Of a stretch of 64,000 nt of DNA, positions 5,285 through 58,120 are shown piece after piece. How positions within the stretch are numbered: the stretch's first letter is position 1; every line of letters begins with the position of its first letter. Under the pieces are notes generated by a model. The model did not search any database and had not been told where the DNA came from. It saw only the letters and a program-made list of their open reading frames with translations. Where the stretch lies: contig NZ_CP031320.1 of NCBI RefSeq assembly GCF_003355155.1, positions 6,809,861 through 6,873,860 on the forward strand. The letters run 5' to 3'. The position numbers and the translations under genes are program-made. The stretch is from Streptomyces armeniacus. GTDB taxonomy: Bacteria; Actinomycetota; Actinomycetes; Streptomycetales; Streptomycetaceae.

Positions 5285-5390
5285 ACGTACGGCGGGCCGG
5301 GCCGGGCGCGCCGTACGGACCGCCGGTCAGCGCGCCGTACGGGCAGGGCAGCCGGGCCGGTGCGCCGTACGGCCGCCCGCGCCCTCCGCG

Positions 5391-7407: not shown

Positions 7408-7446
7408 GGCGCCACCCTAGCTCCGCGCACCGGTACCTTTATCCGC

Positions 7447-8439
7447 GTGTCAGAGACCTCCACTCCTCGACGGCGGCGTGGCAGGGGTCTTCGGATCCTT
7501 GCCGCGCTGGCCGTACTGCTCGGCATCGCCGGTTATCTGGCGACGCAGTACGTCACAGGCGGCGCCGGACCGGCGCGCTGCACCGTACGCGCGACGGGTG
7601 AAGGCGAGAGCAACGGCGACGGCGGCTCGGCGGAGTACAAGGTGCGGCCCGAGCAGGCGTCCAACGCCGCGACCATCGAGGCCGTCGCGTCCTCCCGCGA
7701 GCTGCCCGAACGTGCCGTGACGATAGCCATCGCGACCGCCATCCAGGAATCCGGGCTGCGCAACATCCGGCACGGCGACCGCGATTCACTCGGCCTGTTC
7801 CAGCAGCGCCCCTCGCAGGGCTGGGGCACGCAGCAGCAGATCCTCGACCCGGTGTACGCGTCGGGGAAGTTCTACGACCACCTGGTGAAGGTCCCCGGCT
7901 ACTCCCGGCTGCCGCTCACCGTCGCGGCGCAGCGCGTGCAGCGCAGCGGCTTCCCGCAGGCGTACGCCAAGCACGAGGCGAACGCCGCCCTGCTCACCGC
8001 CGCCCTCACCGGCCGCCGCGCGGCGGCGCTCAACTGCACCACGGGGCCCGGCGGAATCGACAAAGCGGGCAACGCGACGACCGTACGGGAGAAGCTGGCG
8101 CGGGAGTTCGGCGAGGACGTGCTGCGCGGCTCCCCGAAGCCGGACACGGCGGCGGCCGGCACGGGCAGCCACCGCGGAAGCGGCACCGGCGCGGACGCCG
8201 CGAAGGGGGCGGACGCCAAGCAACCGGAGATCGTCCTCACCGTCGACGCGGAGCAGCGCGGCTGGGAACTCGCGCACTGGGCGCTGGCGCACTGGGCGGA
8301 GCTGCGCATCAGCGAGATCTCGTACGGGGGCCGCGAGTGGGCGGCGGACCGTTCCGAGGACGGCTGGCGGGAGTCGGACGAGGACGCGGCGGACGGCGGC
8401 GGAACGACAGTGGTGCTGCGGCTGGCGACGGCGTCGTAG
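7447..8439 (+). CDS. Membrane-anchored protein with lytic-transglycosylase-like domain
   Basis: A 330-residue protein. A basic N-terminus is followed by one transmembrane or signal-anchor helix (residues about 14-35) and an extracytoplasmic region. Residues about 75-160 (VTIAIATAIQESGLRNIRHGDRDSLGLFQQRPSQGWGT) look like the E-S-G-L/G-L-F-Q-Q-R-P-S-Q-G-W-G pattern of a lysozyme-like domain seen in many actinobacterial exported proteins. I recall annotators often calling these 'heavy metal transporter', without support I know of. The C-terminal 70 residues are polar with no recognised domain. The GTG at 7447 is 7 bases from TTTAT, so the mRNA may be leaderless. Cell-wall remodelling is a plausible but unproven role. 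Confidence 0.75.
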   Translation: MSETSTPRRRRGRGLRILAALAVLLGIAGYLATQYVTGGAGPARCTVRATGEGESNGDGGSAEYKVRPEQASNAATIEAVASSRELPERAVTIAIATAIQESGLRNIRHGDRDSLGLFQQRPSQGWGTQQQILDPVYASGKFYDHLVKVPGYSRLPLTVAAQRVQRSGFPQAYAKHEANAALLTAALTGRRAAALNCTTGPGGIDKAGNATTVREKLAREFGEDVLRGSPKPDTAAAGTGSHRGSGTGADAAKGADAKQPEIVLTVDAEQRGWELAHWALAHWAELRISEISYGGREWAADRSEDGWRESDEDAADGGGTTVVLRLATAS

Positions 8440-8537
8440 CGGTACGGGAAGCCCTGGCTGAAGGCGGTCCGGGGCGGGCTGTGAGGTGGCCGGGGCACGG
8501 CTGCCGCGCGTGCTCACCGAAGCCGATTATGCGACGC

Positions 8538-8554
8538 GTTACCAATCCTTTACC
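8538..8554 (+). promoter_or_regulatory. Direct repeat GTTACC-N5-TTTACC upstream of a secreted protein
   Basis: GTTACC (8538-8543) and TTTACC (8549-8554) repeat with an 11-base period, the geometry of sites for OmpR-family response regulators. They lie about 120 bases upstream of the small exported protein at 8671. The hexamer resembles MtrA-type repeats as I recall them, but the regulator cannot be assigned from sequence alone. Confidence 0.4.
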
Positions 8555-8670
8555 AAACTGGCCCGCAACTTTCGGCCCTCCCGGCGCGATAGGCAGTGCG
8601 TTCCGGCCGACAGCGAGTACGGCCGCGAGCGCCTTCCGAAACACAGCACCCCCGCCGTCAAAGGAGCAAC

Positions 8671-8997
8671 ATGTCCCTCCCCCTCACGCGCCGGATCGCC
8701 AAGGCCGCCCTGCTCAGCGCAGCCGGCGCCGCGTCGGTCGTCGGCGCGGCCGGTGCCGCGAGCGCCGCTGACCAGGCCTCCGGCCTGGGCGGACTGACCA
8801 ACCTCAGCAGCGCGGACGCCGGCAGCACCCTCGACAGCACCGCGACGAACGCCACGGGGCTCGCCGGGAAGGCGGGCAAGGACGTGGTGGACGCCGGCGT
8901 TCCGGCGGCGACGAAGGTCGTGGGCGAGACCGTCAAGGGCTCCAACTCCGATTCCAGCACCGGTGGCCTGCCCACCGCGGGTCTGCCGCTCTCCTGA
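8671..8997 (+). CDS. Small secreted protein, Ser/Thr/Gly-rich
   Basis: A 108-residue exported protein. A Sec signal peptide (MSLPLTRRIAKAALLSAAGAASVVGAAGAASA, cleavage after ASA near residue 32) precedes a mature part of about 75 residues rich in Gly, Ser, Thr, Asp and Lys, with no Cys. Small proteins of this kind are common in Streptomyces, often annotated 'ATP-binding protein' without motif support; none is visible here. The ATG at 8671 follows a good AAGGAG. About 230 bases of upstream non-coding DNA hold a response-regulator-like direct repeat, and a strong terminator follows. Confidence 0.8.
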   Translation: MSLPLTRRIAKAALLSAAGAASVVGAAGAASAADQASGLGGLTNLSSADAGSTLDSTATNATGLAGKAGKDVVDAGVPAATKVVGETVKGSNSDSSTGGLPTAGLPLS

Positions 8998-9050
8998 CCC
9001 CGGCGCTCCCGGCCGGGCCGGGAGCAGCGTGGGACACCTGATCCGAACGG

Positions 9051-9091
9051 CGGCGAGGGGCCCCGGAGTTCGCCTCCCGGGCCCCTCGCCG
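9051..9091. terminator. Strong bidirectional terminator
   Basis: A perfect 13-bp stem (9051-9063 with 9079-9091), with an inner GGAG/CTCC stem and a TTCGC loop. It lies between the ends of the small secreted protein gene and the oppositely oriented dapC. Confidence 0.75.
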
Positions 9092-9193
9092 CTGTGTGCT
9101 CACTGTCCGCGCAGTCCGGCGTACGGGCGCTGTCCGGCGTACGACCCGGCGCAGCGCCTGTGCCCAGTGCGCCCCTGCCCAGTGCGCCCCTGC

Positions 9194-10291
9194 TCAGTGC
9201 TCCAGCCGCTGTACGGCCGCCGCGACCCGCTCGTCCGTCGCCGTGAACGCGACCCGTACGAACCGCTCGCCCGCCGGACCGTAGAAGTCGCCCGGCGCGA
9301 CCAGGATGCCGCGCTTGGAGAGCTCGCCGACGGTGTCCCAGCAGGGCTCGTCCCGGGTCGCCCACAGGTAGAGCGACGCCTCGCTGTGCTCGATCCGGAA
9401 GCCGTACGCCTCCAGCGCGCCGCGCAGTGCCGCGCGCCGTGCCGCGTACCGTTCGCGCTGCTCCGCGACGTGCGCGTCGTCGTCCAGCGCCGCCGCCGCG
9501 GCGGCCTGTACGGGCGCGGGCGCCATCATCCCGCCGTGCTTCCGTACGAGCAGCAGGTCCCCGAGCACGGACGCGTCGCCGACGGCGAACGCGGCGCGGT
9601 AGCCGGCGAGGTTGGAGCGCTTGGAGAGCGAGTGGACGGCGACGATCCCCTCGTACGAGCCCCCGCACACGTCCGGGTGCAGCACGGACACCGGCTCGGT
9701 GTCCCAGCCCAGTTCGAGGTAGCACTCGTCGCTGACGAGCAGCACGCCGTGCTCGCGCGCCCAGGCGACCGCCGCGCGCAGTGTCTCGGCGGACAGGACA
9801 CGGCCGGTCGGATTCGAGGGCGAGTTGAGCCACAGCAGCCGCAGCCCGGCCGGGTCCAGCTCCGTGACCTCCTCGTACGTGACCGGCTCCGCACCGGCGG
9901 CCCGCGCACCCACCTCGTACGTGGGGTAGGCCAGCCGCGGGTACGCCACGCGGTCGCCCTCGCCCAGCCCCAGCTGGGTCGGCAGCCACGCGACGAACTC
10001 CTTCGAGCCGACGACGGGCAGCACGTTCGCATGCTCGACACCGCGTGCCCCGAGGCGGCGCCCGCACCAGCCCGCGATCGCGTCGCGAAGGGCGGGCGTG
10101 CCCCACACCGTGGGGTAGCCGGGGCTGTTCGCGGCGTCCGCGAGCGCCCGCCGGACCAGCTCCGGGACCGGGTCGACGGGCGTGCCGACGGACAGGTCCA
10201 CGATGCCGCCCGCGTGGGCCGCGGCCGTCGCCTTGTACGGCTCCAGGCGGTCCCAGGGGAAGACGGGCAGCCGGGCGGAGACGGATGACAA
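9194..10291 (-). CDS. dapC: Succinyldiaminopimelate transaminase (class I/II aminotransferase)
   Basis: A 365-residue PLP-dependent fold-type I aminotransferase. It is likely to make N-succinyl-L,L-diaminopimelate from N-succinyl-2-amino-6-ketopimelate, the step just before DapE, whose gene is 2 kb away. Signatures are the substrate segment NSPSNPTGRVLS, the PLP-phenol pair SDECY and the Schiff-base lysine in HSLSKRSNLAGYR, with the conserved C-terminal Arg region RFVRVAF. The start is TTG (10289-10291; second residue S in SSVSARLPVFPWDRL), with no strong ribosome site, so the exact start is less certain. It lies downstream of the ferredoxin gene, separated by a hairpin. Some family members also transaminate prephenate. 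Confidence 0.9.
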   Translation of the reverse strand: MSSVSARLPVFPWDRLEPYKATAAAHAGGIVDLSVGTPVDPVPELVRRALADAANSPGYPTVWGTPALRDAIAGWCGRRLGARGVEHANVLPVVGSKEFVAWLPTQLGLGEGDRVAYPRLAYPTYEVGARAAGAEPVTYEEVTELDPAGLRLLWLNSPSNPTGRVLSAETLRAAVAWAREHGVLLVSDECYLELGWDTEPVSVLHPDVCGGSYEGIVAVHSLSKRSNLAGYRAAFAVGDASVLGDLLLVRKHGGMMAPAPVQAAAAAALDDDAHVAEQRERYAARRAALRGALEAYGFRIEHSEASLYLWATRDEPCWDTVGELSKRGILVAPGDFYGPAGERFVRVAFTATDERVAAAVQRLEH

Positions 10292-10319
10292 GGGTTGCTC
10301 ACTCTCTCTCGGAACACGT

Positions 10320-10350
10320 CGGTCCCGTACGGGCGTGCCGTACGGGACCG
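10320..10350 (-). terminator. Hairpin between fdxA and dapC
   Basis: GGTCCCGTACGG (10321-10332) and CCGTACGGGACC (10338-10349) form a perfect 12-bp stem, 13 with the flanking C-G pair, around a 5-base loop. It follows the ferredoxin stop by about 30 bases and could end or attenuate transcription into dapC. Confidence 0.6.
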
Positions 10351-10377
10351 GTGCAGCGGTGCGCGCCTGGCCTCAGG

Positions 10378-10704
10378 TCACTCGTCGTGGCTCTGCGGCG
10401 GCAGTGCGGCGATGACGGGATGGTCGCGCTCGATCAGGCCGAGCTTCGAAGCACCACCGGGCGAGCCGAGCTCGTCGAAGAACTCGACGTTCGCCTTGTA
10501 GTAGTCCTTCCACTCCTCGGGAGTGTCATCCTCGTAGAAGATCGCCTCGACCGGGCAGACCGGCTCACAGGCCCCGCAGTCGACGCATTCGTCCGGGTGG
10601 ATGTACAAGGACCGCTGGCCCTCGTAAATGCAGTCGACGGGGCACTCCTCGATGCATGCCTTGTCTTTAAGATCGACACAAGGCTCCGCGATGACGTAGG
10701 TCAC
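10378..10704 (-). CDS. fdxA: 7Fe (3Fe-4S/4Fe-4S) ferredoxin
   Basis: A 108-residue soluble electron carrier of the 7Fe type typical of actinobacteria. Cysteines are at 9, 17, 21 and 25 and again at 40, 43, 46 and 50 (CVDCGACEPVCP). In this family one cluster is 3Fe-4S and the other 4Fe-4S, with cysteines crossing between the two sites. The C-terminal 55 residues (YYKANVEFFDELGSPGGA...) are the usual extension. The GTG at 10702-10704 has GAGGAGGAAC upstream. It is divergent from the GNAT gene. Its redox partner is unknown; the dapC-fdxA adjacency is shared with mycobacteria. Confidence 0.95.
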   Translation of the reverse strand: MTYVIAEPCVDLKDKACIEECPVDCIYEGQRSLYIHPDECVDCGACEPVCPVEAIFYEDDTPEEWKDYYKANVEFFDELGSPGGASKLGLIERDHPVIAALPPQSHDE

Positions 10705-10842
10705 GCTGTCGTTCCTCCTCGATAGGGGCGGCGGAGCGAGTACGGCTCTGCCGCGGGGCGCGCGGGAGCGCGGCGTCGTCGATGCCCGCACCTAGTATCT
10801 CCGTTCCCCGGCATGAGACGAACAGGAGGGGTGGGTAGAGCT

Positions 10843-11967
10843 GTGGAATTCGCCACAGGCGGACATCTTGAGGTCCGCATTACCCCTGACGACGTGGGGA
10901 AACGCGTATCCGTGAGGTCTTTGACCGGTCCGGATGAGCCGAAGGCCGCCTTTACCGACACTGTAGGCGTCCTCACCTCGTGGACCGGCGGGACGCTGCG
11001 GATCACGCGCCGCGACGGGCGGACCGTCGCGCTCCGGGAGGCGGCGCTCGTGGCGGGCAAGCCCGTACCGGCGGCGCCGGCGCGGCGCCGGGGCGTACCG
11101 GCCGCGAGCGTGCGCGAGCTGCAGTGGGTCGCGGCGCGGGGGTGGCCGGCCGTCGAGACGGAACGGCTCGGGGAGTGGACACTGCGGGCCAGCCCCGTGG
11201 CCGTACGAGGGCCCGTACGGGGGGAAGCATCCGTACGGGGGCCCGTACGGCGTGCGGGCTTCACCTCGCGGGCGAACTCCGTGCTGCCGCTCGGCGACCC
11301 CGGACTTCCGCTCGACGCGGCGCTGCGGCACGTTCAGGACTGGTACGCGGAGCGTGGGCTTCCGGCGAAGGTGCAGGTCGCGACCGGTCACGAGGGCGCG
11401 CACGAGCTGCTCGCCGCCCGGCTCGACGAGCGCGGCTGGACCGCCGACCGGCACACGCTGATGCGCACCGGCGCCCTCGCGCCGCTCGCCGACCGCGCAC
11501 CGGACACCCGCGTACGGGTGCACCGGCGGCTCGACGCCGACTGGCTGCGGGCGTACGGGCGCGCGGAAGAGGCGGAGGACGAGACGGCGCCGCGGGTGCT
11601 GAGCGGCGGGCCCTCGGTGTGGTTCGCGACGGTTCCCGGCGAGGGCGAGGCGCCTGGCGAGGGCGGGCCGCGTGGGGAGGGCGAGGCGCATGGCGAGGGC
11701 GGGCCGCCCGTCCCCGCCGCGATCGGGCGGTGCGTGGTGGACGGGCGCTGGGCCGGGTTCGCGGCGATAGAGGTGGCACCGGCGTACCGGCGGCAGGGCT
11801 TCGCCCGCGCCGTCATGGCGGAGCTGGCCCGTACGGCGCTCGCGGAGGGCGCCTCGGCCGCGTACCTCCAGGTGGAGGCGGACAACGACGCGGCACGCGC
11901 GCTGTACGACGGCCTGGGGTTCGCGGACCACCACGCGTACCACTACCGCACCGCACCACGGGTCTGA
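10843..11967 (+). CDS. GNAT family N-acetyltransferase
   Basis: A protein of about 374 residues with two parts. Residues 1-80 form a small beta-barrel-like domain (HLEVRITPDDVGKRVSVRSL...VGVLTSWTGGTLRITRRDG) that recurs at the front of this family. The second half ends in a GNAT domain (WAGFAAIEVAPAYRRQGFARAVMAELARTALAEGASAAYLQVEADNDAARALYDGLGF), with the acetyl-CoA loop in YRRQGFA. A linker near 11638-11703 is a short Gly-Glu repeat (GEGEAPGEGGPRGEGEAHGEGG). The start may be GTG 10843 (chosen, GAG-containing leader) or ATG 10813. The substrate is unknown. It is tightly followed by the SirB1-like gene. Confidence 0.85.
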   Translation: MEFATGGHLEVRITPDDVGKRVSVRSLTGPDEPKAAFTDTVGVLTSWTGGTLRITRRDGRTVALREAALVAGKPVPAAPARRRGVPAASVRELQWVAARGWPAVETERLGEWTLRASPVAVRGPVRGEASVRGPVRRAGFTSRANSVLPLGDPGLPLDAALRHVQDWYAERGLPAKVQVATGHEGAHELLAARLDERGWTADRHTLMRTGALAPLADRAPDTRVRVHRRLDADWLRAYGRAEEAEDETAPRVLSGGPSVWFATVPGEGEAPGEGGPRGEGEAHGEGGPPVPAAIGRCVVDGRWAGFAAIEVAPAYRRQGFARAVMAELARTALAEGASAAYLQVEADNDAARALYDGLGFADHHAYHYRTAPRV

Positions 11968-11995
11968 CCGCGCCGACCGCGCCAGGGAGCTACAC

Positions 11996-12877
11996 ATGAC
12001 GACGAGCGGCAACAGGGAGCGGTTCCGGCGTGCCGCTGCCGAGGAGCGGCCCGACCTGGCACTGCTGTGCCTGCTGATCGGCGCCGAGTCCGATCCGGAG
12101 GGCGGCGAGGCGGCGATCGACGCGGCGCAGATCGAACTCGACCGGCTGGCCGGCGAACTGCCTGCGGACCTGCCGGGCGACGGTGCAAGCGGTGCCGGCG
12201 GCAGCGGGCCCGTGCCGCCCGGCGGCCCGCAGGCCTGGGCGGAGGCGCTGCGGCGGCTGCTCGGCGAGACGTACGGCTTCCACGGCACCCCGGCGGACTA
12301 CCGCCGCCTCGACTCCTCACTCCTCCAGGCCGTGCTGACCCGCAGACGCGGGCTGCCGATCCTGCTGTCCGTGGTCTGGATCGAGGTGGCCCGGCGGGCC
12401 GGGGCGCGCGTGTACGGGGTGGCGCTGCCCGGCCACTTCGTCGTCGGCTTCGGCGACCCGGACGGCGAACACGTACTGGCCGACCCCTTCGCCGGCGGAC
12501 GTACGCTCGCGGCCTCGGACGTGGACCTGCTCGTCGCGGGCGCGACCGGCGAACGGAGCCCCGTACCGCCGACCCTGCTGCGGCCCGCGGACCCGCTGGA
12601 CACGGTGCTGCGGGTGCTCAACAACGTCCGGGCGTGGGCCGCCGCCCGCCCCGAGCACTCGTCCGTCCAGCTGTGGGCCCTCGAACTCGCCCTGCTCCTC
12701 CCCCACCGCCCGATGCGGCTACGGCTGGAGCACGCGCAACTGCTCGTCGAGCGGGGCGATTTCCTGGCGGGGGCACAGGAACTGGAGGAGTACGCGGACC
12801 TCGTGGCGACGGTGGACCCCCGCTCGGCCGACACGGCCCGCCACGCGGCCCACACGGCCCGAGCCCGCCTCAACTAG
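11996..12877 (+). CDS. SirB1-like transglutaminase-fold / TPR protein
   Basis: A 293-residue protein. The core resembles the SirB1/transglutaminase_9 domain: RRRGLPILLSVVWIEVARRAGARVYGVALPGHFVVGF, with an ADPFAGG segment after it. This is followed by helical repeats (LRVLNNVRAWAAARPEHSSVQLWALELALLLPHRPMRLRLEHAQLLVERGDFLAGAQELEEYA) of TPR character. There is no Cys in the usual catalytic position of true transglutaminases, so enzymatic activity is doubtful. The function is not established. The ATG at 11996 follows AGGGAG, 28 bases after the GNAT gene, so an operon is likely. Just downstream the sequence runs into the adapter-like join. Confidence 0.82.
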   Translation: MTTSGNRERFRRAAAEERPDLALLCLLIGAESDPEGGEAAIDAAQIELDRLAGELPADLPGDGASGAGGSGPVPPGGPQAWAEALRRLLGETYGFHGTPADYRRLDSSLLQAVLTRRRGLPILLSVVWIEVARRAGARVYGVALPGHFVVGFGDPDGEHVLADPFAGGRTLAASDVDLLVAGATGERSPVPPTLLRPADPLDTVLRVLNNVRAWAAARPEHSSVQLWALELALLLPHRPMRLRLEHAQLLVERGDFLAGAQELEEYADLVATVDPRSADTARHAAHTARARLN

Positions 12878-13025
12878 GCGCTGCGCCGGGCTTTAGCCGT
12901 ACGTCGGCCCTCGGGCGCCCCGGCATTCCGCCGGACCCTCGCCACGGGGGCGGGGCGCCGTCGCGGCGGGAAGGGTGCGGGCCCGTGCCCAACTGGCCCG
13001 GCACGCCAGACGCCCGGACCGGGGC
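12878..13025. other. Non-coding stretch left of the adapter join
   Basis: GC-rich sequence between the SirB1-like gene and the adapter-like segment. I see no conserved protein in any frame, no ribosome site and no clear hairpin. It may be the natural 3' flank of the operon, or damaged read-end sequence leading into the artefact. Confidence 0.5.
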
Positions 13026-13091
13026 CCGTCTCCTATACACATTTCCGAGCCCAATAGACGGGCCCCTACTTCTTCTGCCGTCCTCTCGCGG
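13026..13091 (+). other. Probable Illumina Nextera i7 adapter remnant (assembly artefact)
   Basis: Bases 13026-13059 match the 34-base Nextera transposon-end/read-2 adapter (TATACACAT, then TCCGAGCCCA, then AGAC) at 29 of 34 positions. After exactly 8 bases (13060-13067, the index position) bases 13068-13091 match the P7 tail at 16 of 24, including TGCCGTC. Translations also resemble the spurious adapter peptides known from databases: [10 protein letters not shown] on the minus strand, and [10 protein letters not shown] and PIHISEPN on the plus strand. Adapter comparison is from memory. The most likely explanation is adapter read-through built into the contig. Confidence 0.85.
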
Positions 13092-13327
13092 CCGCGCCGG
13101 GCGCGCGCTCCACGGACGCGCCGTGGCATCACGCCCAGCCGCCGTCCGACGAAGGCGGAGCAGCGGCCCCCGGTATACGTCGCGACGCCGAGCCGGACCG
13201 CGACCCGGCCCCCGACCCGGACCGCGACCCGGCCCCCGACCCCGACCGCGATCGGGGCCCCGACCGCGGCCGCGGCACCCAGAGCGGCGACGGCACGGAC
13301 GGCGACGGCGAAGGGGGCGAGAGCTGA
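13092..13327 (+). pseudogene. 3' fragment of an upstream nuo-operon gene, cut by the adapter join
   Basis: The frame ending at TGA 13325-13327 is open back through the adapter segment and has no start. Its stop overlaps the nuoH start (TGATG), the same coupling as elsewhere in the operon, so it is probably the tail of the preceding nuo gene. The tail is low in complexity: a Pro-Asp-Arg repeat (roughly RDPAPDPD repeated) and a [13 protein letters not shown] end. No conserved domain remains, so the subunit cannot be named; the D subunit, or another subunit of a partial nuo cluster, is plausible. Confidence 0.4.
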
Positions 13328-14286
13328 TGGACGTATTCGACGTCGCGCTCCGGCTGGTCGCCGTGCTCGTGGTCTTCCTCACCTTCCCCCTGATCATCGG
13401 CCAGACCGAGCACAAGGTGATGGCCCACATGCAGGGCCGCGTCGGCCCGATGTACGCCGGCGGGTTCCACGGCTGGGCCCAACTGATCGCCGACGGGGTC
13501 AAGTTCGCGCAGAAGGAAGACGTCGTTCCGGACGGTGCCGACCGGCGGGTCTTCCAGTTGGCCCCCGCCGTGGCGCTCATCCCGTACCTCCTGGTCCTGA
13601 TCGCCATTCCGATCGCGCCAGGCAGCGGCGTCGGGCAGGTGATCGACGCCGGCATCTTCTTCGTACTCGCCGTGATGGGCGTCGGCGTGCTCGGCTCGCT
13701 GATGGGCGGCTGGGCCTCCGCGAACAAGTTCTCGCTCCTCGGCGGCCTCCGTACGGGCGCCCAGCTGATGGCGTACGAGCTGCCGATGCTGCTCGCCGCC
13801 GCGTCCGTCGCGATGGCCGCCGGCACGCTCTCGCTGACCGGCATCCTCGGCGCCTTCGAGTGGTGGTGGGTGCCGTGGCAGATCATCGGCGCCGTCGTCT
13901 TCTTCACGGCCGGGCTGGCCGAGCTTCAGCGGCCCCCGTTCGACGCCCCGGTCGCGGACTCGGAGATCATCTTCGGTGCCTACACCGAGTACACGGGGCT
14001 GCGTTTCGCCCTCTTCCTGCTTGCCGAGTACGCGGGCATCGTGGTGCTCTGCGGGCTGACCACCGTGCTGTTCCTGGGCGGCTGGCACGGCCCGTTCTCC
14101 GGCGAACTCGGCTGGCTGTGGACCCTGCTCAAGACGGCGGTGCTCGCCTTCGTGGTCATCTGGCTGCGGGTCAGCTATCCGCGGCTGCGCGAGGACCAGA
14201 TCCAGCGGGTGGCCTGGACCGCGCTCGTACCGCTCGCGCTCCTTCAGATCGCCCTCACCGGCGTCGTCAAGGTGGTGATCCAGTGA
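13327..14286 (+). CDS. nuoH: NADH-quinone oxidoreductase subunit H
   Basis: A 319-residue integral membrane subunit of complex I, at the junction of the quinone site and the proton channel. About eight transmembrane helices are visible, with the conserved [36 protein letters not shown] near the N-terminus and [31 protein letters not shown] near residue 215. The ATG overlaps the preceding stop (TGATG), and its own stop overlaps the nuoI GTG (GTGA). It is the first complete gene of a seven-gene H-N run. Genes A-G are not in the window. Confidence 0.95.
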
Positions 14287-15017
14287 AGTCCCGCCCGTCG
14301 TCCGCGACTCCCACCGTGACGGCCGCCGCCGGCGCGGCCGACGCCCCGGCGGAGCCGTCCGGGAAGCGCCGTTCGCTGCCCGGTTCGGGGCTCGCCAAGG
14401 GCCTCGCGGTCACCCTTCGTACGATGACGCGGCGGTCGGTCACCGCGCACTATCCGGACGTGCAGCCCGAACTGCCGCCGCGCAGCCGGGGCGTCATCGC
14501 GCTGTTCGAGGAGAACTGCACGGTCTGCATGCTGTGCGCGCGCGAGTGCCCCGACTGGTGCATCTACATCGACTCGCACAAGGAGACGGTGCCGCCGACC
14601 GCTCCGGGCGGGCGGGAGCGCAGCCGGAACGTGCTGGACCGCTTCGCCATCGACTTCTCACTCTGCATGTACTGCGGCATCTGCATCGAGGTGTGCCCCT
14701 TCGACGCGCTGTTCTGGTCGCCGGAGTTCGAGTACGCGGAGACCGACATCCACGAGCTGACGCACGAACGGGACAAGCTGCGGGAGTGGATGTGGACCGT
14801 GCCCGAACCGCCCGCGCTGGATCCGGCGGCGGAGGAGCCGAAGGAGATCGCCGCGGCCCGTAAGACGGCGGACAAGCTCGCCGCCGCCGAACAGGCGCAG
14901 CGGGCCGAGCAGTCGGAGCAGCCGGGACAGCGCGAACAGCCCGAGCCGCCCGGACAGTCCGGACAGGCCGACGCGGCACGGGACCAGGCACCGGGACCGC
15001 GGGAGGGCGACGCGTGA
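14283..15017 (+). CDS. nuoI: NADH-quinone oxidoreductase subunit I
   Basis: A 244-residue peripheral subunit carrying two 4Fe-4S clusters (N6a/N6b) that pass electrons toward the quinone site. The motifs [12 protein letters not shown] and [12 protein letters not shown] are intact. An N-terminal extension of about 45 residues and a Gln/Glu/Pro-rich C-terminal tail of about 65 residues ([17 protein letters not shown]) are longer than in the enterobacterial protein, as in other actinomycetes. The GTG start (14283) overlaps the nuoH stop. Confidence 0.95.
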
Positions 15018-15619
15018 GCCACGCTGCCGCACACCCCGGATTCCTCTCGCCCACCGGTGTCGAGATCGTCTTCGTCCTCGTCGGCATCGCCACCCTCGCC
15101 GCCGCCGTCATCACCGTCACCACCAGGAAACTGGTGCACGCGGCGCTGTGGCTGGTGGTGGCGCTCGGCGGGATCGCCGTCGAGTACCTGCTGCTCACCG
15201 CGGAGTTCATCGCGTGGGTCCAGGTGCTGATCTACGTCGGGTCCGTCGTCGTCCTCCTCCTCTTCGGGCTGATGCTCACGCGCGCGCCGATCGGTGACTC
15301 GCCGGACGCCGACTCCGGCAACCGGTGGGTGGCGCTCGCGGTCGCCCTGGCCGCCGCGGCCACGCTGGTCACCGTCGTCGTGGACGCGTTCCGCGCCACG
15401 TGGATCGACCTCGACTCGTCCGTGCAGGGCTCCGCCGACGTCACCGGCGAGATCCTCTTCCGGCACTGGGTGCTGCCGTTCGAGGCGCTGTCGGTCCTGC
15501 TGCTCGCCGCGCTCGTCGGCGCGATCGTGCTGTCCCGCAAGGCGGGCCGCGCAGCCGCCGGTCCGGGCCCGAGCCCCGCACCGGACGAGACCGCCACCGA
15601 CGGAGAGGAGCAGCGCTGA
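15014..15619 (+). CDS. nuoJ: NADH-quinone oxidoreductase subunit J
   Basis: A 201-residue membrane subunit with five predicted helices. The family segment [48 protein letters not shown], which includes the pi-bulge helix of complex I, is intact. A periplasmic or loop insert and a Pro/Ala-rich C-terminal tail follow. The GTG start overlaps the nuoI stop and its stop overlaps the nuoK ATG. Confidence 0.95.
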
Positions 15620-16008
15620 TGCATCTCGCCTATCCGGCCGTGCTCGCCGTCCTCCTCTTCTGCGTCGGCATCTACGGCGTCCTCGCCCGCCGCAACGCCA
15701 TCCTGGTCCTGATGTCGGTCGAGCTGATGCTCAACGCCGTCAACCTCAACCTCGTGGCGTTCGACGTCTGGCTCCGCGAAACCCTGCACACAGGTCAGGC
15801 GCTCACCCTCTTCGTCATCGCCATCGCCGCCGCCGAGATCGGCATCGGTCTCGCCATCGTGCTGATGGTCTACCGCAACAGAGGCACCTCCGACGTCGAC
15901 CGCCTCCGCGACCTCAAGGAGACCGCGGCCGGGGCCGCGACCGGGACCGCGGACGGCGACGCCAGCACACGCGAACAGGGGAATTCCGCCGGGAGGCAGA
16001 CCGCGTGA
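15619..16008 (+). CDS. nuoK: NADH-quinone oxidoreductase subunit K
   Basis: A 129-residue, three-helix membrane subunit. It keeps the functional glutamates of the family in [14 protein letters not shown] and [15 protein letters not shown]-terminal tail of about 35 hydrophilic residues ([23 protein letters not shown]) is longer than usual. The ATG overlaps the nuoJ stop, and the stop overlaps the nuoL GTG. Confidence 0.95.
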
Positions 16009-18026
16009 CCACCACGACCCTCGCCGTCCTCGTCCCCCTGCTGCCCTTCCTCGGCGCCGTCGCCGGTCTGCTGCTGGGCCGTACGGCACCCGGCTTCGTA
16101 CGGCCGCTCGCCGTGCTGCCCACCCTCCTCGCGACCGTCTTCGCCTGCTTCATCGCCGCCGAGCACGGCAAGAGCGACGCGCTGAAGGCGGCCACCGAGC
16201 TGACGCCCACCGGCAACGAAGCCCTCCCCATCCAGCTCGCCCTGCACATCGACGGCTTCGCCGCGCTGGTCGCCATCCTGGTCGGGGTCGTCGCCGGCTG
16301 CGTGCAGCTCTACTCCACCGGCTACCTGCGCGACGACCCGCGCTACTCCTCGTACGCCGCCCTCGTCTCCCTCTTCACCGCCGCGATGTTCCTCGTCGTC
16401 TACAGCGACGACCTCATCGTGCTGCTGGTCGGCTGGGAGATCATGGGCATCTGCTCGTACTTCCTGGTCGGGCACTACTGGCAGACGCGGGCCGCGCGCG
16501 ACGCGTCCATGAAGGCGTTCCTGGTCACCAAGCTCGGCGACGTCCCCTTCCTGATCGGCATCCTGGCTCTGGCCACCGAGATGGGCAGCTTCCGGATCAG
16601 CACCATCGTCACCCGGGTCGGCTCCTCACTCTCCGGCTTCGAACTCGAACACCCCACTCTCATCGCGCTGCTGCTGCTCGCCGGGATCGCGGGCAAGTCC
16701 GCGCTGTTTCCGCTGCACACGTGGCTGCCCGACGCGATGGCCGGCCCCACGCCCGTCTCCGCGCTGATCCACGCCGCGACGATGGTCGCCGCCGGCGTGT
16801 ACTTCGTCGCCCGGCTGCTGCCCGTCTTCGCCGCGTCCGCCGCCGCCCTCTCCGTACTGGCGGTGATGGCCGCCGTCACCATGGTCGGCTCGGCGCTCGC
16901 CGCGCTCGCCCAAGACGACGTGAAACGCGTCCTGGCCTACTCGACCATCGGCCAACTCGCCTACATGGCGGGCGCCCTGGCCGTCGCCGACCGCGGCGCG
17001 GCCGTCTTCCACCTCCTCTCCCACGGCGCCTTCAAGGCGCTGCTGTTCCTCGGCGCGGGCGTCCTCATCCACACCGCCGGCACCAACTCGCTGGCCGCGA
17101 TGGCCCGTATGCGCGGCATCGCCCGGCGCGCCCCCGACGCGTGCTGGACGATGGCCATCGCGCTCCTCGCGCTCGCCGCCATCCCGCCCTTCGCGGGCTT
17201 CTTCTCCAAGGAGGCGGTGCTCGGCGCCGCCGAGCACGCCGCGATCGGCGACGCCCGCGGCGTGCCCACCGGCGCCGGCTGGACCGTGCTCGTCGCCGGT
17301 CTGCTCACCGCCCTCCTCACCGCGGCCTACGCCGCCCGCCTCTGGCTGCTCGCCTTCCGCGGCGACGGCCCGCAGGAGGCCCCCGACCACGGCCGCGAGC
17401 CGCTCGTCATGAACTCGGTGCTCTGGGCGCTCGCCCTCCCCTCCCTCGCCTTCGGCATCCTCTACGGCGCCCTGCCGGACTGGTTCGACGGCCACTCGCT
17501 GACCCCGACCCTCACCACCTCCGTGCTCGGCACCGGCCTCGCCGGAGTGGGCGCGATCGTGACGTACGCCGCGTGGCGGCACACCACCGCGCTCGCCGCC
17601 CGCGTCCCGCTCGGCGCCGTCGCCGCGCACCCCGGGAGCGACCCGTCCGTGTCCGAGGCCGAGGCCATCGCCAGCCACGAGCCCGCTTATGGCGACATTG
17701 CCGCCGCCCGCGACCCCGCCGACCCCGGCCGGCTGCTGCTCGGGCCCTTGCACCGGCACGCCGCGCGCGGCTTCCACCTCGACGCCGTGTACGCGGCACT
17801 GTTCGTACGCCCCGTCCAGGCCGCCGCCCGGCTGGTGCGCTTCCTGGACCGCGAGGTCGTCGACACGTATGTACGCGGCGCCGGGCTCGGACCCAGGCTT
17901 CTCGGCACCGCCGTACGCCGGGCCCAGACCGGAAACGCGCAGACCTATCTCGGCGCGCTGCTCGCCGGGTCCCTCGTGCTGGCCGTGGCCGCCGTCCTGG
18001 TGGCCGCCGGAACCGGAGGAGCCTGA
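16005..18026 (+). CDS. nuoL: NADH-quinone oxidoreductase subunit L
   Basis: A 673-residue antiporter-like proton-pumping subunit. The conserved core includes [17 protein letters not shown], the lysine-bearing [40 protein letters not shown], and [14 protein letters not shown]. The C-terminal part carries the amphipathic and anchor helices (roughly 600-673). The GTG start overlaps the nuoK stop. nuoM begins only 2 bases after its stop. Confidence 0.95.
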
Positions 18027-18028
18027 CC

Positions 18029-19642
18029 GTGCTGCCCCTCAACGACACCACCATGGGCCTCCTGCTCGCGGCCGTCGTCGTGCTCCCCCTGCTCGGCTCG
18101 GCCGCGGCACTGCTCCCCGCGCCGCCCGGACTGAAGGGCACCGGCCCCGAACAGGCCGTGCTGCGCCATGGCGTGACCGTCACCGGCGTGGTGCTCGCCG
18201 GCGCGGTCCTGCTCGCTCTCGGCTTCGACCACGATCACCCGGCGGCCATGCAGGCCGAGACGGATATCAGCTGGATCCCGGCCCTCGACATCCGCATCCA
18301 CTTCGGCATCGACGGAGTCTCCCTCCCCCTGCTCGTGCTGACCGCGCTGCTGACCTTCCTCTGCGCGCTCTACAGCTACTTCCGGATGCCCTCAGGCCCG
18401 TCCGCCAAGGGCTTCGTCGCACTGCTGCTCGTCCTCGAGTCCGGCACCCTCGCCACCTTCGCCGTCCTCGACCTGATGTTGTTCTTCCTGGCGTTCGAGA
18501 TGGTGCTCATCCCGATGTACTTCCTCATCGCCCGCTGGGGCGGCGCGGAACGGGGCCCCGCCGCCTGGAAGTTCATCCTCTACACCCTCCTCGGGTCCGT
18601 TGTGATGCTCCTCGGCCTGCTCCTCGTGGGACTCGAGGCAGGCACGTTCGACATGGTGGCACTCGGCACTGACAACGGCCCCGGCACGGACGGCGGCGGC
18701 CCCCAACTGAGCCACACCGTGCAGCTCGTGGCCGTCCTCGCCATCGGCATCGGCCTCGCCGTGAAGACCCCGATGTGGCCGCTGCACAGCTGGCTCCCGG
18801 ACGCGCACACGGCCGCCCCCACCGTCGGCTCCGTGCTCCTCGCGGGCGTCCTGCTGAAGATGGGCACGTACGGCTTCGTCCGCATCCTGCTGCCCGTCGC
18901 GCCCGACGGGATGCAGACGTTCGCGCCGTACCTCGCCGCCCTCGCCACCGTCGGCATCATCTACGGCTCCCTCGCCTGCCTCGCCCTCGCCCGCCGCGGC
19001 GCCAAGGGCGACCTCAAGCGCCTCATCGCGTACTCCTCCGTGGGCCACATGGGCTTCGTGCTGCTCGGCATCTCGACCATGACCCGTACGGGCGTGAACG
19101 GCGCGCTCTTCGCGAACGTCGCCCACGGCCTCATCACCGGCCTCCTCTTCTTCCTCGTCGGCGCGCTCAAGGACCGCACCGGCACCACCGACCTCGACCA
19201 GCTCGCGGGCAGCACGGGCGCCGCGCTGTACGGGAGGGTGCCGCGGTTCGGCGGGCTGCTCGCCTTCGGGGCCGTCGCCTCGCTCGGGCTGCCCGGACTC
19301 GCGGGATTCTGGGGCGAGATGCTCGCCCTGCTCGGCGCCTTCCAGCCGGCCGACGGGCTGAGCCGGCCCGCGTACCTCACCTTCATGGCGTTCGGCGCCG
19401 TCGGCACCCTGCTCACCGCCGCGTACCTGCTGCTCGTCGTACGGCGCGTCTGCATGGGCGATCCGGAACAGCAGCCCGAGCCGGCCGAGGGGGCGGCGGC
19501 GCTGCCCGACATCCGCGGCCACGAGTTCGCCGCCTGGACGCCGCTCGTCGTCCTCACCGTCCTCGCCGGGCTCTGGCCCGCGGCCCTCCTCGGGCTCACC
19601 GACCCCGCCGTACAGGACCTCCTGCCAGGAGTGACCCGATGA
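18029..19642 (+). CDS. nuoM: NADH-quinone oxidoreductase subunit M
   Basis: A 537-residue antiporter-like subunit. Motifs are LAFEMVLIPMYFLIARWGG, VKTPMWPLHSWLPDAHTAAPTVGSVLLAGVLLKMGTYG (with the functional Lys residues), and LIAYSSVGHMGFVLLGI. The GTG at 18029 is preceded by GGAGGAG, which lies in the end of nuoL. An ATG eight codons later is an alternative start. The stop overlaps the nuoN ATG (ATGA). Confidence 0.95.
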   Translation: MLPLNDTTMGLLLAAVVVLPLLGSAAALLPAPPGLKGTGPEQAVLRHGVTVTGVVLAGAVLLALGFDHDHPAAMQAETDISWIPALDIRIHFGIDGVSLPLLVLTALLTFLCALYSYFRMPSGPSAKGFVALLLVLESGTLATFAVLDLMLFFLAFEMVLIPMYFLIARWGGAERGPAAWKFILYTLLGSVVMLLGLLLVGLEAGTFDMVALGTDNGPGTDGGGPQLSHTVQLVAVLAIGIGLAVKTPMWPLHSWLPDAHTAAPTVGSVLLAGVLLKMGTYGFVRILLPVAPDGMQTFAPYLAALATVGIIYGSLACLALARRGAKGDLKRLIAYSSVGHMGFVLLGISTMTRTGVNGALFANVAHGLITGLLFFLVGALKDRTGTTDLDQLAGSTGAALYGRVPRFGGLLAFGAVASLGLPGLAGFWGEMLALLGAFQPADGLSRPAYLTFMAFGAVGTLLTAAYLLLVVRRVCMGDPEQQPEPAEGAAALPDIRGHEFAAWTPLVVLTVLAGLWPAALLGLTDPAVQDLLPGVTR

Positions 19643-33837: not shown

Positions 33838-34482
33838 GTGACCACCGCCGTACTCCCGTTGCTCGGCGCCTGGGCCGTGGCCGTCGTCAGTCCGGGCCCC
33901 GACTTCGTCATCACCCTCCGCACCGCCGCCGCCGACACCCGGCGGGCGGGGCTGTGGGTCGCGACGGGCGTCGTCTCGGGGATCGCGTGCTGGGCCGTGC
34001 TCGCGCTGCTGGGCCTGACCACGCTCCTGGACCGGCACCAGCACCTGTACCAGGCCGTACGGGCCGCCGGTGCCTGCTTCCTCATCTACTACGGCGCCAC
34101 CACCCTCTGGCGGACCTGGCGGCAGAGGGCCGAGGAGGCGCCGGACCCCGTCGGCGTACGGGCGGGGGCCGGGGCCCGAGCCCGTACGGGAAGCGCGCTG
34201 CGGCACTGGCGGCTCGGGCTGCTGACCAATCTGGCCAACCCGAAGGCCGTCGTCTTCTTCGGCGCCCTGTTCGCCGGTCTGCTGCCCGCCGGGACCAGCC
34301 CGGCCGAACGGGTCGTGCTGCTCGCCGTGATGCTGGCCATGGCGCTGGCCTGGTTCGGGCTGGTGGCCCTCGCGGTGGCCACGCCGCTGGTGACCGGCGC
34401 GTACCGGCGTGCGCGCCGGGCCATCGACACGGTGACCGGGGGAGTCTTCGCGGGGGTCGGCGCCGCGCTCATGCCCCGCTGA
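33838..34482 (+). CDS. LysE/RhtB family amino-acid exporter
   Basis: A 214-residue inner-membrane exporter with about six helices. It carries the family start (AVLPLLGAWAVAVVSPGPDFVITLRTAAAD) and the conserved GLLTNLANPKAVVFFGALFAGLLP. It is presumed to export an amino acid or analogue. A GAGGAG ribosome site precedes the GTG at 33838. It is co-transcribed with the XRE-cupin regulator. Its 3' end overlaps the convergent monooxygenase remnant by 14 bases. Confidence 0.92.
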   Translation: MTTAVLPLLGAWAVAVVSPGPDFVITLRTAAADTRRAGLWVATGVVSGIACWAVLALLGLTTLLDRHQHLYQAVRAAGACFLIYYGATTLWRTWRQRAEEAPDPVGVRAGAGARARTGSALRHWRLGLLTNLANPKAVVFFGALFAGLLPAGTSPAERVVLLAVMLAMALAWFGLVALAVATPLVTGAYRRARRAIDTVTGGVFAGVGAALMPR

Positions 34483-35756
34483 GGAGCCCCCCGCTGACGC
34501 CGCCCAGCACCTGCCGCCGGATGGCGCGCAGTTCCTCGGCGTCCAGCTCGACCCCGGCGCCGAACACCACGACCCGCAGCCGCTCCGGCGCGCCGTCCCG
34601 GCCGAGCGCCCCGCGCGCCGACGCGCGCAGCACGCGCACCATTCGCGCGGAGCCCTTGACGCGCCCGTCCCGCGGCGCGTCGAGGGCGGTCCGCGCCGCC
34701 CCGTCCGCCCCCGCGCCGTACGAGCGGCAGCGCCTGGTCCACGGCCCGCAGCCGCGCGCCGACCGCCCTGCGCCGCTCCGCCTCGTAGCTGTCGAGCAGC
34801 GTCTCGGTGCCGTCCGTGTGCCCGTGGTGCCAGGCCAGGGCCAGCTTCCAGGAGAGGTTGGCGGCGTCCCGCAGCCCTTCGTCGGCGGACTGCACGCCCA
34901 GCGCGCCCACCAGGTGCGCCGCGTCCCCCGCCAGAAACGCGCGGCCGGAGCGCCAGCGCCGGGCCAGCCGCTGGTGCGAGGTGTGGACGCCGGTGTCGAG
35001 GAGTTCGTACGCGGGTGGCGCGCCGCCCCCGCCGCGCGTGCGGTACCACTCCGTCAGCGTGTCGTGTACGCGGGTGAGCAGCTGCTCGGGTGTGACCAGG
35101 TCGCCGCGCGGCGGCAGCAGCCAGTCCAGCCGCCACAGCCCGTCGGCCAGCGGACGCGCCGTCACCTCGCCGCCGGCGCCGCCCGGGTCGCGGTGCAGCA
35201 GTGCCTCGTCCGTCCAGGGCAGCCGGGTGCGCAGCGCGGCCACCGCGTGCCGTTCCACGGCCGTGCGGCCGGTGAAGCGCACCCCGAGCCGTGCCCGTAC
35301 GGTCGACCGGGCGCCGTCGCAGCCGACCAGGTAGCTGCCGCGCCACCAGGTGCCGTCCGCACCGCGGGTGTGTGCGCTGACGCCGTCGGCGTCCTGTTCC
35401 AGCTCGTCCAGGTGGCTGCCGGTGACGAGCCGTACCAGCTCGTCCCGTTCGAGTGCCGCGCGCAGCGTCCCCGTCAGCCGGTGCTGCTCGACGTGCAGCG
35501 GCGACGTCTCGTCGTCCAACTCCACGTGGTGCACAAGCCGGCGGCGCCGCTCCGCGCGCCATCCGCTCCACCGCACGCCGCCGACCGGGGGCAGCAGCGA
35601 CGCCGTGTCAGGGCGCAGCACGCAGGTGCGTGCCGCCCGGCGCTCCACCTGGCCGTCGCCGGCGTCCAGCACTATGGAAGGGACGGAGTGGCGCGAGAGC
35701 GCCAGCGCCAGCGCGAGCCCGACCGGGCCCGCACCGACGATGATCACCGGGTCCAC
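34469..35756 (-). pseudogene. FAD-dependent aromatic monooxygenase, apparent frameshift
   Basis: A PHBH-type flavoprotein monooxygenase of about 428 residues if read through one frameshift. Present are the dinucleotide motif IIVGAGPVGLALALALSRH at the start, the DG motif YLVGCDGARSTVRARLG, and the GD motif FLAGDAAHLVGALGVQSADEGLRDAANLSWKLALAW. Near 34700-34718 (gene strand GCGCGGGGGCGGAC) the frame is lost. Continuing +1 gives a plausible C-terminal domain ending in TGA at 34469-34471. One extra G in a run of five would explain it, by sequencing error or real mutation; the uncorrected frame runs on to 34089. Flavin hydroxylases of this group act on phenolic substrates or polyketides. Confidence 0.75.
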
Positions 35757-54209: not shown

Positions 54210-56018
54210 ATGGGCGCGGTGCGAAACCTTCGGAAGCTCAGCCGGGCCGCCCTGCTCCGGCCCGCCCCCCGCGGCGCGCTGCCGGACGCCATCGAGCACG
54301 TCGCGCAGGCGCACCGCGCGCACCACCCCGGCGCCGACCTCGACGCGCTGCGGCGCGCGTATCTGCTCGCCGAGTCCTCGCACCGCGGGCAGACCCGCAA
54401 GAGCGGCGAGCCGTACATCACGCATCCGCTCGCCGTGACCCTGATCCTTGCCCAACTGGGCGCGGAGCACACCACGTTGACGGCCTCGTTACTGCACGAC
54501 ACGGTCGAGGACACCGACGTCACGCTGGACCAGGTGCGCGCCGAGTTCGGGGACGAGGTGTGCCATCTCGTCGACGGTGTCACCAAGTTGGAGAAGGTCG
54601 ACTACGGCGCCGCGGCCGAGCCCGAGACGTTCCGCAAGATGCTCGTCGCCACCGGCAGCGACGTCCGCGTGATGTCCATCAAGCTCGCGGACCGCCTGCA
54701 CAACATGCGTACGCTCGGCGTGATGCGGCCCGAGAAGCAGGCCCGTATCGCCAAGGTCACCAGCGACGTGCTCATTCCGCTCGCCGAACGGCTGGGCGTC
54801 CAGGCACTCAAGCGGGAGCTGGAGGACCTGGTCTTCGCGATCCTGCTGCCCGAGGAGCACGCGCGCACCCAGGAGTTGATCCGCGAGCACACCGCGCGCC
54901 CCGACCCACTCACCCAGGTCGCCGCGACCGTACGGGCGGTGCTGCGCGAGGCGGAGATCGACGCTCAGGTGCTCATCCGGCCGCGGCACCTGGTCTCCCT
55001 GCACCGGCTGCGGCTGAAACGCGGCGAGCTCGGCCCCTGCGACTTCGGGCGGCTGATGATCCTCGTGGCCGAGGACGCCGACTGCTACGCGGCGCTCGGC
55101 GAACTGCACACCTGCTTCGTGCCCGTGATGTCCGAGTTCAAGGACTTCATCGCGGTGCCCAAGTTCAACCTCTACCAGTCGCTGCACACCGCCTTCGCCG
55201 ACAAGGACGGCCGCGTCGCCGAAGTCCTCGTCCGTACGCGGCAGATGCACCAGGTCGCCGAGGCCGGTGTGATCGCGCTCGGCGATCCCCACAGCGCGCC
55301 CGCGGAAGCCGAAGCGGAAGCGGGCGGCGACGGCGAACGGGCCGACCCGACCCGGCCCGGCTGGCTCTCCCGGCTGCTGGAGTGGCAGAGCCACACCACG
55401 GACCCGGACACGTTCTGGAGCGAGCTGCGCGACGAGCTGGCCGAGGACCGCGAGATCACCGTGTACTGCGCCGAGCCCGGCACCGGCGGCAGCAGCGGCG
55501 CGCTGCCGCTCCCGGCCGGCGCCAGCTGCGTCGACGCCGCGTACGCGCTGCACGGCGAGGCCGCGCACCGCTGCATCGGCGCCCGCGTCAACGGGCGGCT
55601 CACCGCGCTCAGCACGGTGCTGCGCGACGCCGACACGGTGCAGCTGTTCCTGGCTCCCACGACCGGCACCGCCGCGTACGCGCCCGCGCCGGAGTGGCTC
55701 GACCACGCGCGGACGCCCGCCGCCCGCATCGCCATCCGGAAGTGGCTCGCGGCGCACCCGCCCGTACCGGCCGCCGACACCGTGACGGCCCCCGCGGAGC
55801 ACGGCACGGACGCCCGGCCCGCGCCGCGGCGCGACGCGCGACCGGAACCCGTCGCGGAATCCCGTACGCACGCCCCCGCGACATCACCGTCCAGCGCACC
55901 GGCTTCACCGAAGCATGCCGTCCTCGCGCTCGCCCGCCGCCGCGTCAACGTTCTCTTCGCCATGATCCGTGACCGACAGTGCTACCACGCTCCGCCTTCC
56001 GTCACGACCGCCGCTTGA
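54210..56018 (+). CDS. RelA/SpoT homologue, hydrolase-type (RSH) with degenerate synthetase
   Basis: A 602-residue RSH protein. The HD hydrolase domain is intact: HRGQTRKSGEPYITHPLAV (H72), LLHDTVEDT (H96/D97, E100/D101) and SIKLADRLHNMRT (D161, R162, N165). The synthetase region (about 210-330) lacks the GR-x-K-x-Y and D-L-x-G-x-R motifs, with RPRHLVSLHRLRLKRGELGPCDFGRLM in their place. FNLYQSLHTAF and a TGS-like domain near 430-510 remain. It is therefore expected to degrade but not make (p)ppGpp. The last 70 residues are a disordered Pro/Ala tail. The ATG at 54210 follows GGGAGGTG. Confidence 0.88.
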   Translation: MGAVRNLRKLSRAALLRPAPRGALPDAIEHVAQAHRAHHPGADLDALRRAYLLAESSHRGQTRKSGEPYITHPLAVTLILAQLGAEHTTLTASLLHDTVEDTDVTLDQVRAEFGDEVCHLVDGVTKLEKVDYGAAAEPETFRKMLVATGSDVRVMSIKLADRLHNMRTLGVMRPEKQARIAKVTSDVLIPLAERLGVQALKRELEDLVFAILLPEEHARTQELIREHTARPDPLTQVAATVRAVLREAEIDAQVLIRPRHLVSLHRLRLKRGELGPCDFGRLMILVAEDADCYAALGELHTCFVPVMSEFKDFIAVPKFNLYQSLHTAFADKDGRVAEVLVRTRQMHQVAEAGVIALGDPHSAPAEAEAEAGGDGERADPTRPGWLSRLLEWQSHTTDPDTFWSELRDELAEDREITVYCAEPGTGGSSGALPLPAGASCVDAAYALHGEAAHRCIGARVNGRLTALSTVLRDADTVQLFLAPTTGTAAYAPAPEWLDHARTPAARIAIRKWLAAHPPVPAADTVTAPAEHGTDARPAPRRDARPEPVAESRTHAPATSPSSAPASPKHAVLALARRRVNVLFAMIRDRQCYHAPPSVTTAA

Positions 56019-56105
56019 CAACAACATGAGGAGGTGTCACGTACACCCCCGGGAGGGCGCTCAGGCCCATGGGCCGCGGCTTGGGGGCTCCGTAGCGTCG
56101 GGCGC

Positions 56106-57125
56106 ATGAGTGGAGACAGCTACGGCGGACGAGTGACTCGTCGCATCGCTTTGCGGAATGCCGGCATCGTCGCGGGCGGGGCCGCGCTCGCCGCGGGTAC
56201 GGGCGCCGGTACGGGTGCGGCCTCGGCGGCCGTGCGCGGCGCGCCCCACGGTGGCGGGCGCCCACGGCACGGGACGGTGCGCACGTACGTCCTCGTGCAC
56301 GGCACCCACAGCGCCGGTGCCTACTGGACCCCCATCGCCCGCGAACTCACCCTGCGCGGACACCGCGTCGTGGCCGTGGACCAGCCGCTGCACGGCGCCG
56401 AGGCGTTCGTGCCGGAGGCGTACCAGACGCAGGACCTGCGGGCCCTCGCCACCGAGCCGTCGCCGGTGGCCCGGCTCGGCCTGGACGACTACGCGCGGCG
56501 GGTCGAGCAGGCCGTACGGCGCGCCGCCGAGCACGGGCCACTGGTGCTCGTCGCGCACAGCATGGGCGGCATCTCCGTCACCCGTACGGGGAACGCCGTG
56601 CCCGAACTCATCGACCACATCTGCTACATGGCGTCGTTCTGCCCCTCCCGCAGCATGCCGACGCTCAACGACTGCATGTCCGCGCCGGAGAGCGCCTCCG
56701 CCGTCAGCACCGACGAGCAGGTCGTCGGCGACATGGAACGGCTGGGCGTGGCGCGCTTCAACTGGCGTACGGGCAGGCGCAAGGACCTCGACGTCTTCAA
56801 GGAGATGATCTGCGCGGACCATCCGGACGACGCGTTCCGGCGGGTGATCGCCGGGATGCAGACGGACGAGACGCTGCGCGCGTACGGGGAACGGGCGGTC
56901 GGCGAGCGGGACACGTGGGGGCGGGTGCCGCGGACGTATCTGCGGTTCGGGCGCGACCGGCTGGTCACGCCGGAGCTCCAGGACCGGATGATCAACGAGG
57001 CGGACCGGCTGACGCCCGGGAACCAGTTCACCGTGCACGACTTCACGCGGGCGCCGCACATCGGCCCGCTCGATCCCGCACCGGTCGTGGACGCGCTGGA
57101 GGGGGTGGCGGTACGGCGGCGGTGA
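56106..57125 (+). CDS. Tat-exported alpha/beta hydrolase
   Basis: A 339-residue secreted alpha/beta hydrolase. The twin-arginine signal (TRRIALRNAGIVAGGAALAAG, cleavage near AASAA) is followed by the fold: oxyanion region VLVHGTHSAGAYWTPI, nucleophile Ser in LVAHSMGGIS, and catalytic His in FTRAPHIGPLDP. Similar proteins are esterases or lactonases; the substrate is unknown. The start at ATG 56106 (MSGDSYGG) was chosen; an in-frame GTG at 56034 is less likely. Confidence 0.87.
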   Translation: MSGDSYGGRVTRRIALRNAGIVAGGAALAAGTGAGTGAASAAVRGAPHGGGRPRHGTVRTYVLVHGTHSAGAYWTPIARELTLRGHRVVAVDQPLHGAEAFVPEAYQTQDLRALATEPSPVARLGLDDYARRVEQAVRRAAEHGPLVLVAHSMGGISVTRTGNAVPELIDHICYMASFCPSRSMPTLNDCMSAPESASAVSTDEQVVGDMERLGVARFNWRTGRRKDLDVFKEMICADHPDDAFRRVIAGMQTDETLRAYGERAVGERDTWGRVPRTYLRFGRDRLVTPELQDRMINEADRLTPGNQFTVHDFTRAPHIGPLDPAPVVDALEGVAVRRR

Positions 57126-57170
57126 CCGTACGGGGGGTGACCGTACGGGGGGGGGTGACCGTACGGGCGA
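57121..57170. repeat. Short tandem repeat GGTGACCGTACGGG
   Basis: Three near-identical copies of a roughly 14-base unit (GTGACCGTACGGG with variable G runs) follow the hydrolase stop. The GTACGG core is frequent throughout the window. Confidence 0.6.
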
Positions 57171-57214
57171 GGGCGTCCGGGGCAGGCGGCAACAGGCGTA
57201 CGGGGCGCGCTCGT

Positions 57215-58096
57215 TCAGCGGCCGACGAGGACGCCGGTGACCGCCTCGGCGGCCGCGACGACGGCCGCCTCCACCGTGTCGATCCCCGTCGCCTGGGACG
57301 GCTGACCGTCGCAGAGCACGGCGAGGAGCAGCTCGTGGCCGTCGTGCCGCACCACGCCGACGCTGTTGACGACCCACAGGCCGGAGGCCGTACGGGGCAG
57401 CCAGCCGTTCTTCAGCGCGGTGCCCGTCCCGGGGTCGGCGGCGGCCGACACGCCCCAGTCCTGCCCGGACCGTACCCGCGACATGAGCGCGCGCACGTAC
57501 GCGCGGGACTCGGGCGTCAGCGGCGAGTCGGCGGCGGTGACCGCCGTGAGCAGCCGCAACTGGTCGGCGGCGGTGGTCGTGGTCAGGCCCCAGTGGTCGT
57601 CCGCGCCGGGCACGGTCCCGGTGAGGCCGAACGTCCGGTTCGCCTCGGCGAGGCCGTCGGCACCGCCGATGGCGCGCCAGAGGCGGTCGGCGGCGTGGTT
57701 GTCGCTGACCTGGATCATCTGGCGGGCGTCGGTCCGTTGCTCGGCAGTGAGCGGCCGACCCTCCTTCTGGGCGCGGAGCAGGAGCGCGGCGAGGATGCCG
57801 ACCTTGGCGACGCTCGCGGTGACGAACGCGTGCTCGTCGGGCGGCGCGTAGACGGCGCTGCTGCCGGACGCGGGGTCACCGATCGCCAGCGAGACGTTTC
57901 CCTCGGCCGTACGGGCCAGGCCCCGGAGGGCGGCGGCGAGTACGGCGTCGGGGGCGGGGGCAGCCGTGCCCGCGAACCACGCCACGCCGGTCCCTCCCCT
58001 CCGCGTACGGCAGGCCGTCGTGCGGCCTGTCCTCGTACGGCCGACCCTCGTACGGGCTACCCGCAAGCGGGCCCACCGTATGCGGCCGTTCCGCAC
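57215..58096 (-). CDS. Serine hydrolase, class A beta-lactamase-like
   Basis: A protein of up to 293 residues of the serine beta-lactamase/PBP fold. It has the S-x-x-K motif in TASVAKVGIL, an S-D-N motif in MIQVSDNHAADR, and KNG in place of the usual K-T/S-G near the C-terminus. No signal peptide is evident. The N-terminal 35 residues are an Arg/Thr/Gly-rich run from GTACGG-type repeats and may not be translated; a GTG at 57985 starts nearer the domain. Beta-lactam hydrolysis cannot be assumed, and peptidase or esterase activity is equally possible. Confidence 0.75.
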   Translation of the reverse strand: MRNGRIRWARLRVARTRVGRTRTGRTTACRTRRGGTGVAWFAGTAAPAPDAVLAAALRGLARTAEGNVSLAIGDPASGSSAVYAPPDEHAFVTASVAKVGILAALLLRAQKEGRPLTAEQRTDARQMIQVSDNHAADRLWRAIGGADGLAEANRTFGLTGTVPGADDHWGLTTTTAADQLRLLTAVTAADSPLTPESRAYVRALMSRVRSGQDWGVSAAADPGTGTALKNGWLPRTASGLWVVNSVGVVRHDGHELLLAVLCDGQPSQATGIDTVEAAVVAAAEAVTGVLVGR

Positions 58097-58120
58097 AAAC
58101 GGCCTGCGCGGGCGGCCCGT

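Follow-up and report, generated by a model that had tools for sequence, protein, structure and literature searches.

Introduction

Adapters are known contaminants of microbial databases: Moeller et al. 2024 (PMC11536531) describe them as concentrated at the ends of contigs, and their reverse complements at the starts. In that work, exact TruSeq 12-mers were counted in MGnify genomes, and the main text mentions neither 'Nextera' nor 'mismatch'. Here, we analysed a stretch of 64,000 nucleotides, hereafter the window, which corresponds to positions 6,809,861-6,873,860 of the 8,083,249-base single-contig genome of Streptomyces armeniacus (contig NZ_CP031320.1). Positions 13026-13091 of the window carry a degraded copy of the Nextera i7-side adapter, with an index and a P7 remnant. 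This is the same kind of artefact as that of PMC11536531, and all 10 of the 10 close adapter pairs in the genome stand forward then reverse, as two abutted contig ends would. The S. armeniacus case differs from the earlier one in that the adapter is Nextera, the copies are imperfect and they lie inside a single-contig record, where they mark false joins. The stretch is an artefact of a known kind, and it almost certainly stems from adapter read-through at a false join between contigs that are not neighbours.

Results

The adapter reference can be described as composed of the i7-side adapter, whose first 19 bases are the mosaic end derived from Tn5, an index and P7. The original prediction claimed a match of 29 of 34 positions at 13026-13059, and this claim holds: the runner-up among the 34-mers of the window scores 20, and the highest value reached in 200 simulated first-order Markov windows is 23. 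The predicted order and spacing were also borne out, and the gap between the i7 adapter and the P7 remnant is exactly 8 bases long. The octamer in this gap, GGGCCCCT, is equal at 6 of 8 bases to GGACTCCT, which we take to be Nextera index N705, and at 7 of 8 bases to GGACCCCT; 0.6% and 0.04% of window positions, respectively, do as well. The P7 match had been put at 16 of 24 bases, which our recount lowers to 15. Counted over both strands, and with the copy at 13068-13091 included, the window has 20 places that score at least 15/24, and the P7 match was therefore rejected as evidence when taken alone. In the fixed register of the P7 remnant, the frequency of such a score is 11 of 63,977 forward positions, this copy again counted. 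Adapter-like peptides, which had also been predicted, were found in the translations: IHISEP is present, another adapter-like peptide lies in the open reading frame 12067-14286, and GSEMCIGD is encoded on the minus strand in the open reading frame 12893-13132. The adapter remnant and its flanks (13020-13066) fold into a hairpin with a perfect stem of 11 base pairs (z -2.7), which partly uses bases where the copy differs from the adapter. An Rfam scan of 12700-13400 gave no match.

Table 1 Features of the window and their coordinates.
Feature	Position	Strand	Remarks
GNAT-type acetyltransferase gene (Rv0428c-like)	10813..11967	+	Pfam PF24553/PF00583; genuine genomic DNA of the left piece
Transglutaminase-like (Transglut_core2) gene	11996..12877	+	final gene of the left piece
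Degraded Nextera mosaic end and i7-side adapter	13026..13059	+	29/34 match
i7 index remnant GGGCCCCT	13060..13067	+	two changes from GGACTCCT
P7 remnant	13068..13091	+	exact register, 15/24; adapter/genome boundary inside 13068..13091 uncertain
nuoC 3' end (complex I 30 kDa subunit gene)	13092..13327	+	stop TGA 13325-13327 overlaps nuoH start
nuoH	13327..14286	+	first complete gene of the right piece
Further break region	34482..34705
Further break region	55799..58118

Synteny with a close relative ends at the adapter on both sides. The relative is collinear with the window, with small gaps, over positions 32-12884, 13297-25784 and 34705-55799. In all 80 of the 80 loci retained, the transglutaminase-like gene has an acetyltransferase homologue directly upstream of it. 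The transglutaminase-like gene and nuoH are separated by 437-812 kb in 17/17 relatives that have both on one contig, and nuoH stands beside the transglutaminase-like gene in none of the 80 named loci. The lost partners of both flanks were found elsewhere in this assembly, at 3.66 Mb and 8.00 Mb, which is 3.16 Mb and 1.18 Mb away, and both adjoin other adapter remnants. The 5' part of nuoC (PF00329) is located at about G000:C1:8004000-8004926 of this assembly. The claim that the stretch is adapter, and that the genes on its two sides should not be joined, is supported by the synteny break and by the partners found elsewhere. A copy in independent genomes, which had been named as evidence that would count against this claim, did not appear: a 37-mer gave 0 exact matches in genome contigs, from which the own record was possibly excluded. 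In the relative G031, nuoC and not nuoD directly precedes nuoH; nuoD was discarded as a marker for the missing operon part, and its PF00346 match at 6,889,029 is a false lead. The DNA attached to the 5' part of nuoC (L087 10067-10819; position 8005066 onwards in the own genome) opens with a Rad52/22-family gene (PF04098) and comes perhaps from a phage or a plasmid.

With the 66-nt adapter as query, the own genome gave 42 matches (E of 10 or less), the window copy not among them. A 19-mer mosaic-end pattern with up to 3 mismatches was chosen for the genome scan, since it recovers the window copy, and copies with more mismatches are left out of the counts. The scan found 92 copies (41 forward and 51 reverse), while the reversed control found 0. 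Exact copies are absent; one mismatch is seen in 2 copies, two in 54 and three in 36. On the assumption of independent errors, a binomial fitted to the two- and three-mismatch classes puts the expected number of copies with at most one mismatch at about 74 (37 to 157 on resampling). The simplest reading of these classes is that trimming which allowed one error in 19 took out the good matches, and this explains the mutated look of the window copy. Common default trimming stringencies would remove adapter matches with one error in 19. There are 82 adapter-marked places in the genome, and their spacing falls along the sequence (Spearman -0.88). Together with the forward-then-reverse orientation of the close pairs, this falling spacing has the look of contigs that were sorted by length and then strung together. 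At 4 of the 82 places continuity with relatives was tested, and it breaks at the adapter in all 4, which are the 13.0 kb site, its two partner ends and one more (bracketed only).

Fifteen long copies, with a 34-mer score of 26 or more, were sampled from part of the loci. In 8 of them the adapter is followed by an octamer that differs from GGACTCCT at no more than two positions, as an index common to the library would, and the other 7 have N, unrelated sequence or at least 3 changes at this position. P7 is present at 15 to 21 of 24 bases in six of the 15. Several copies run on past the adapter into AT-rich sequence unlike the genome, probably by reading beyond the end of the molecule. In two copies, L047 (7420967) and L051 (606369), a run of N covers adapter positions directly after the readable part. 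In L047 the end of P7 follows in register after the N run, so that this run looks more like masking than like a scaffold gap.

Discussion

The join is best explained as follows. A Nextera library molecule was almost certainly read through its mosaic end, i7 adapter, index and P7, and a short-read contig kept this sequence at its end, where assembly had halted, perhaps at a hairpin rich in guanine and cytosine (GC-rich). Read tails with at least 2 errors in the 19-base mosaic end, a threshold that we infer, would have escaped trimming. The contigs would then have been strung together, roughly by decreasing length, into one record of 8.08 Mb. The adapter now lies between two pieces that are not neighbours in the chromosome, a left piece that ends with the acetyltransferase and transglutaminase-like genes and a right piece that begins with the torn 3' end of nuoC and with nuoH.

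Three other explanations were considered. The join could be real, produced by an inversion or a translocation in the strain, with the adapter match arising by chance. A single inversion would unite the two outer partners at the other breakpoint, but these are found at 3.66 Mb and 8.00 Mb, with adapter remnants next to each. The cut would also fall inside nuoC, and the match of 29/34 is not due to chance, so that a real join is very unlikely. The adapter could instead fill a gap between true neighbours, in which case the gene order would be correct. Adapter sequence can in principle enter such a gap, but the distance between the two genes in the relatives, their absence as neighbours from the named loci and the torn nuoC, whose remainder is elsewhere, make this extremely unlikely.

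A genuine transposon end of the Tn5 type would fit the origin of the first 19 bases. However, the match extends past these bases into the rest of the i7 adapter, the index and P7, none of which is known from a transposon. The flanking genes with Pfam matches are the acetyltransferase gene, the transglutaminase-like gene and nuoH, with no transposase among them. There is no second mosaic end with 14/19 or more in the window, and the neighbouring genes that were scanned include no transposase. The probability of a transposon end is practically negligible.

Mosaic-end matches were also found in other genomes of the genus. The mosaic end, with up to 3 mismatches, matches 66 of 392 genomes including S. 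armeniacus, or 65 of the 391 others. The reversed control also matches some of these genomes once or twice, and single mosaic-end matches therefore carry little meaning. Among the matches listed, 63 of 68 reverse matches in other genomes are within the first 150 bases of a contig (counted by eye); the matches were not each compared with the window copy. The highest counts are those of G145 (292), G012 (162), S. armeniacus (92), G333 (88) and G123 (76). G012 consists of one contig, and its transglutaminase-like gene and nuoH share a strand, which they do not in 16 other relatives. Two weak adapter-like matches (15 and 14 of 19) were found near its transglutaminase-like gene, the nearer about 1.1 kb away, and none near its nuoH. 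G012 is not a second proven case; on counts alone, it is a candidate second concatenated single-contig genome.

A false join marked by adapter read-through has consequences for the use of this record. The gene order at 13.0 kb is not biology, and nothing can be inferred from it on transglutaminase-like and nuoH neighbours, on a missing nuoC or on fusions. Since all 4 of the tested places among the 82 break synteny, studies of synteny, operons or gene clusters are at risk if they take the record for a single chromosome. Adapter screens that rely on exact matches miss the problem, as 0 of the 92 copies are exact. We consider it moderately likely that some single-contig 'complete' reference genomes of actinobacteria are strings of length-sorted short-read contigs, in which adapters just too mismatched for trimming mark dozens of false joins. 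If this is true, such records could be recognised without any reads, by a test that combines the number of mismatches, the orientation of the pairs and the shrinking of the spacing. Our literature search returned no paper on adapter peptides and no relevant paper on concatenated Nextera-bearing Streptomyces records.

Two further break regions are present in the window (Table 1). In our analysis, an unmarked break was expected near 55.8 kb, and it was found at 55,799. No recognisable adapter is present at the breaks near 34.5 kb and 55.8 kb, which carry the same warning on gene order with less certainty. A 53-residue frame that ends at 56,015, and which by eye resembles the end of a transposase, matched no Pfam family. 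To the left of the adapter, positions 12925-12973 hold a dispersed, GC-rich repeat some 50 bases long, on which 22 of 34 non-self matches fall. Six copies of it were aligned, and it may represent a real family of intergenic repeats.
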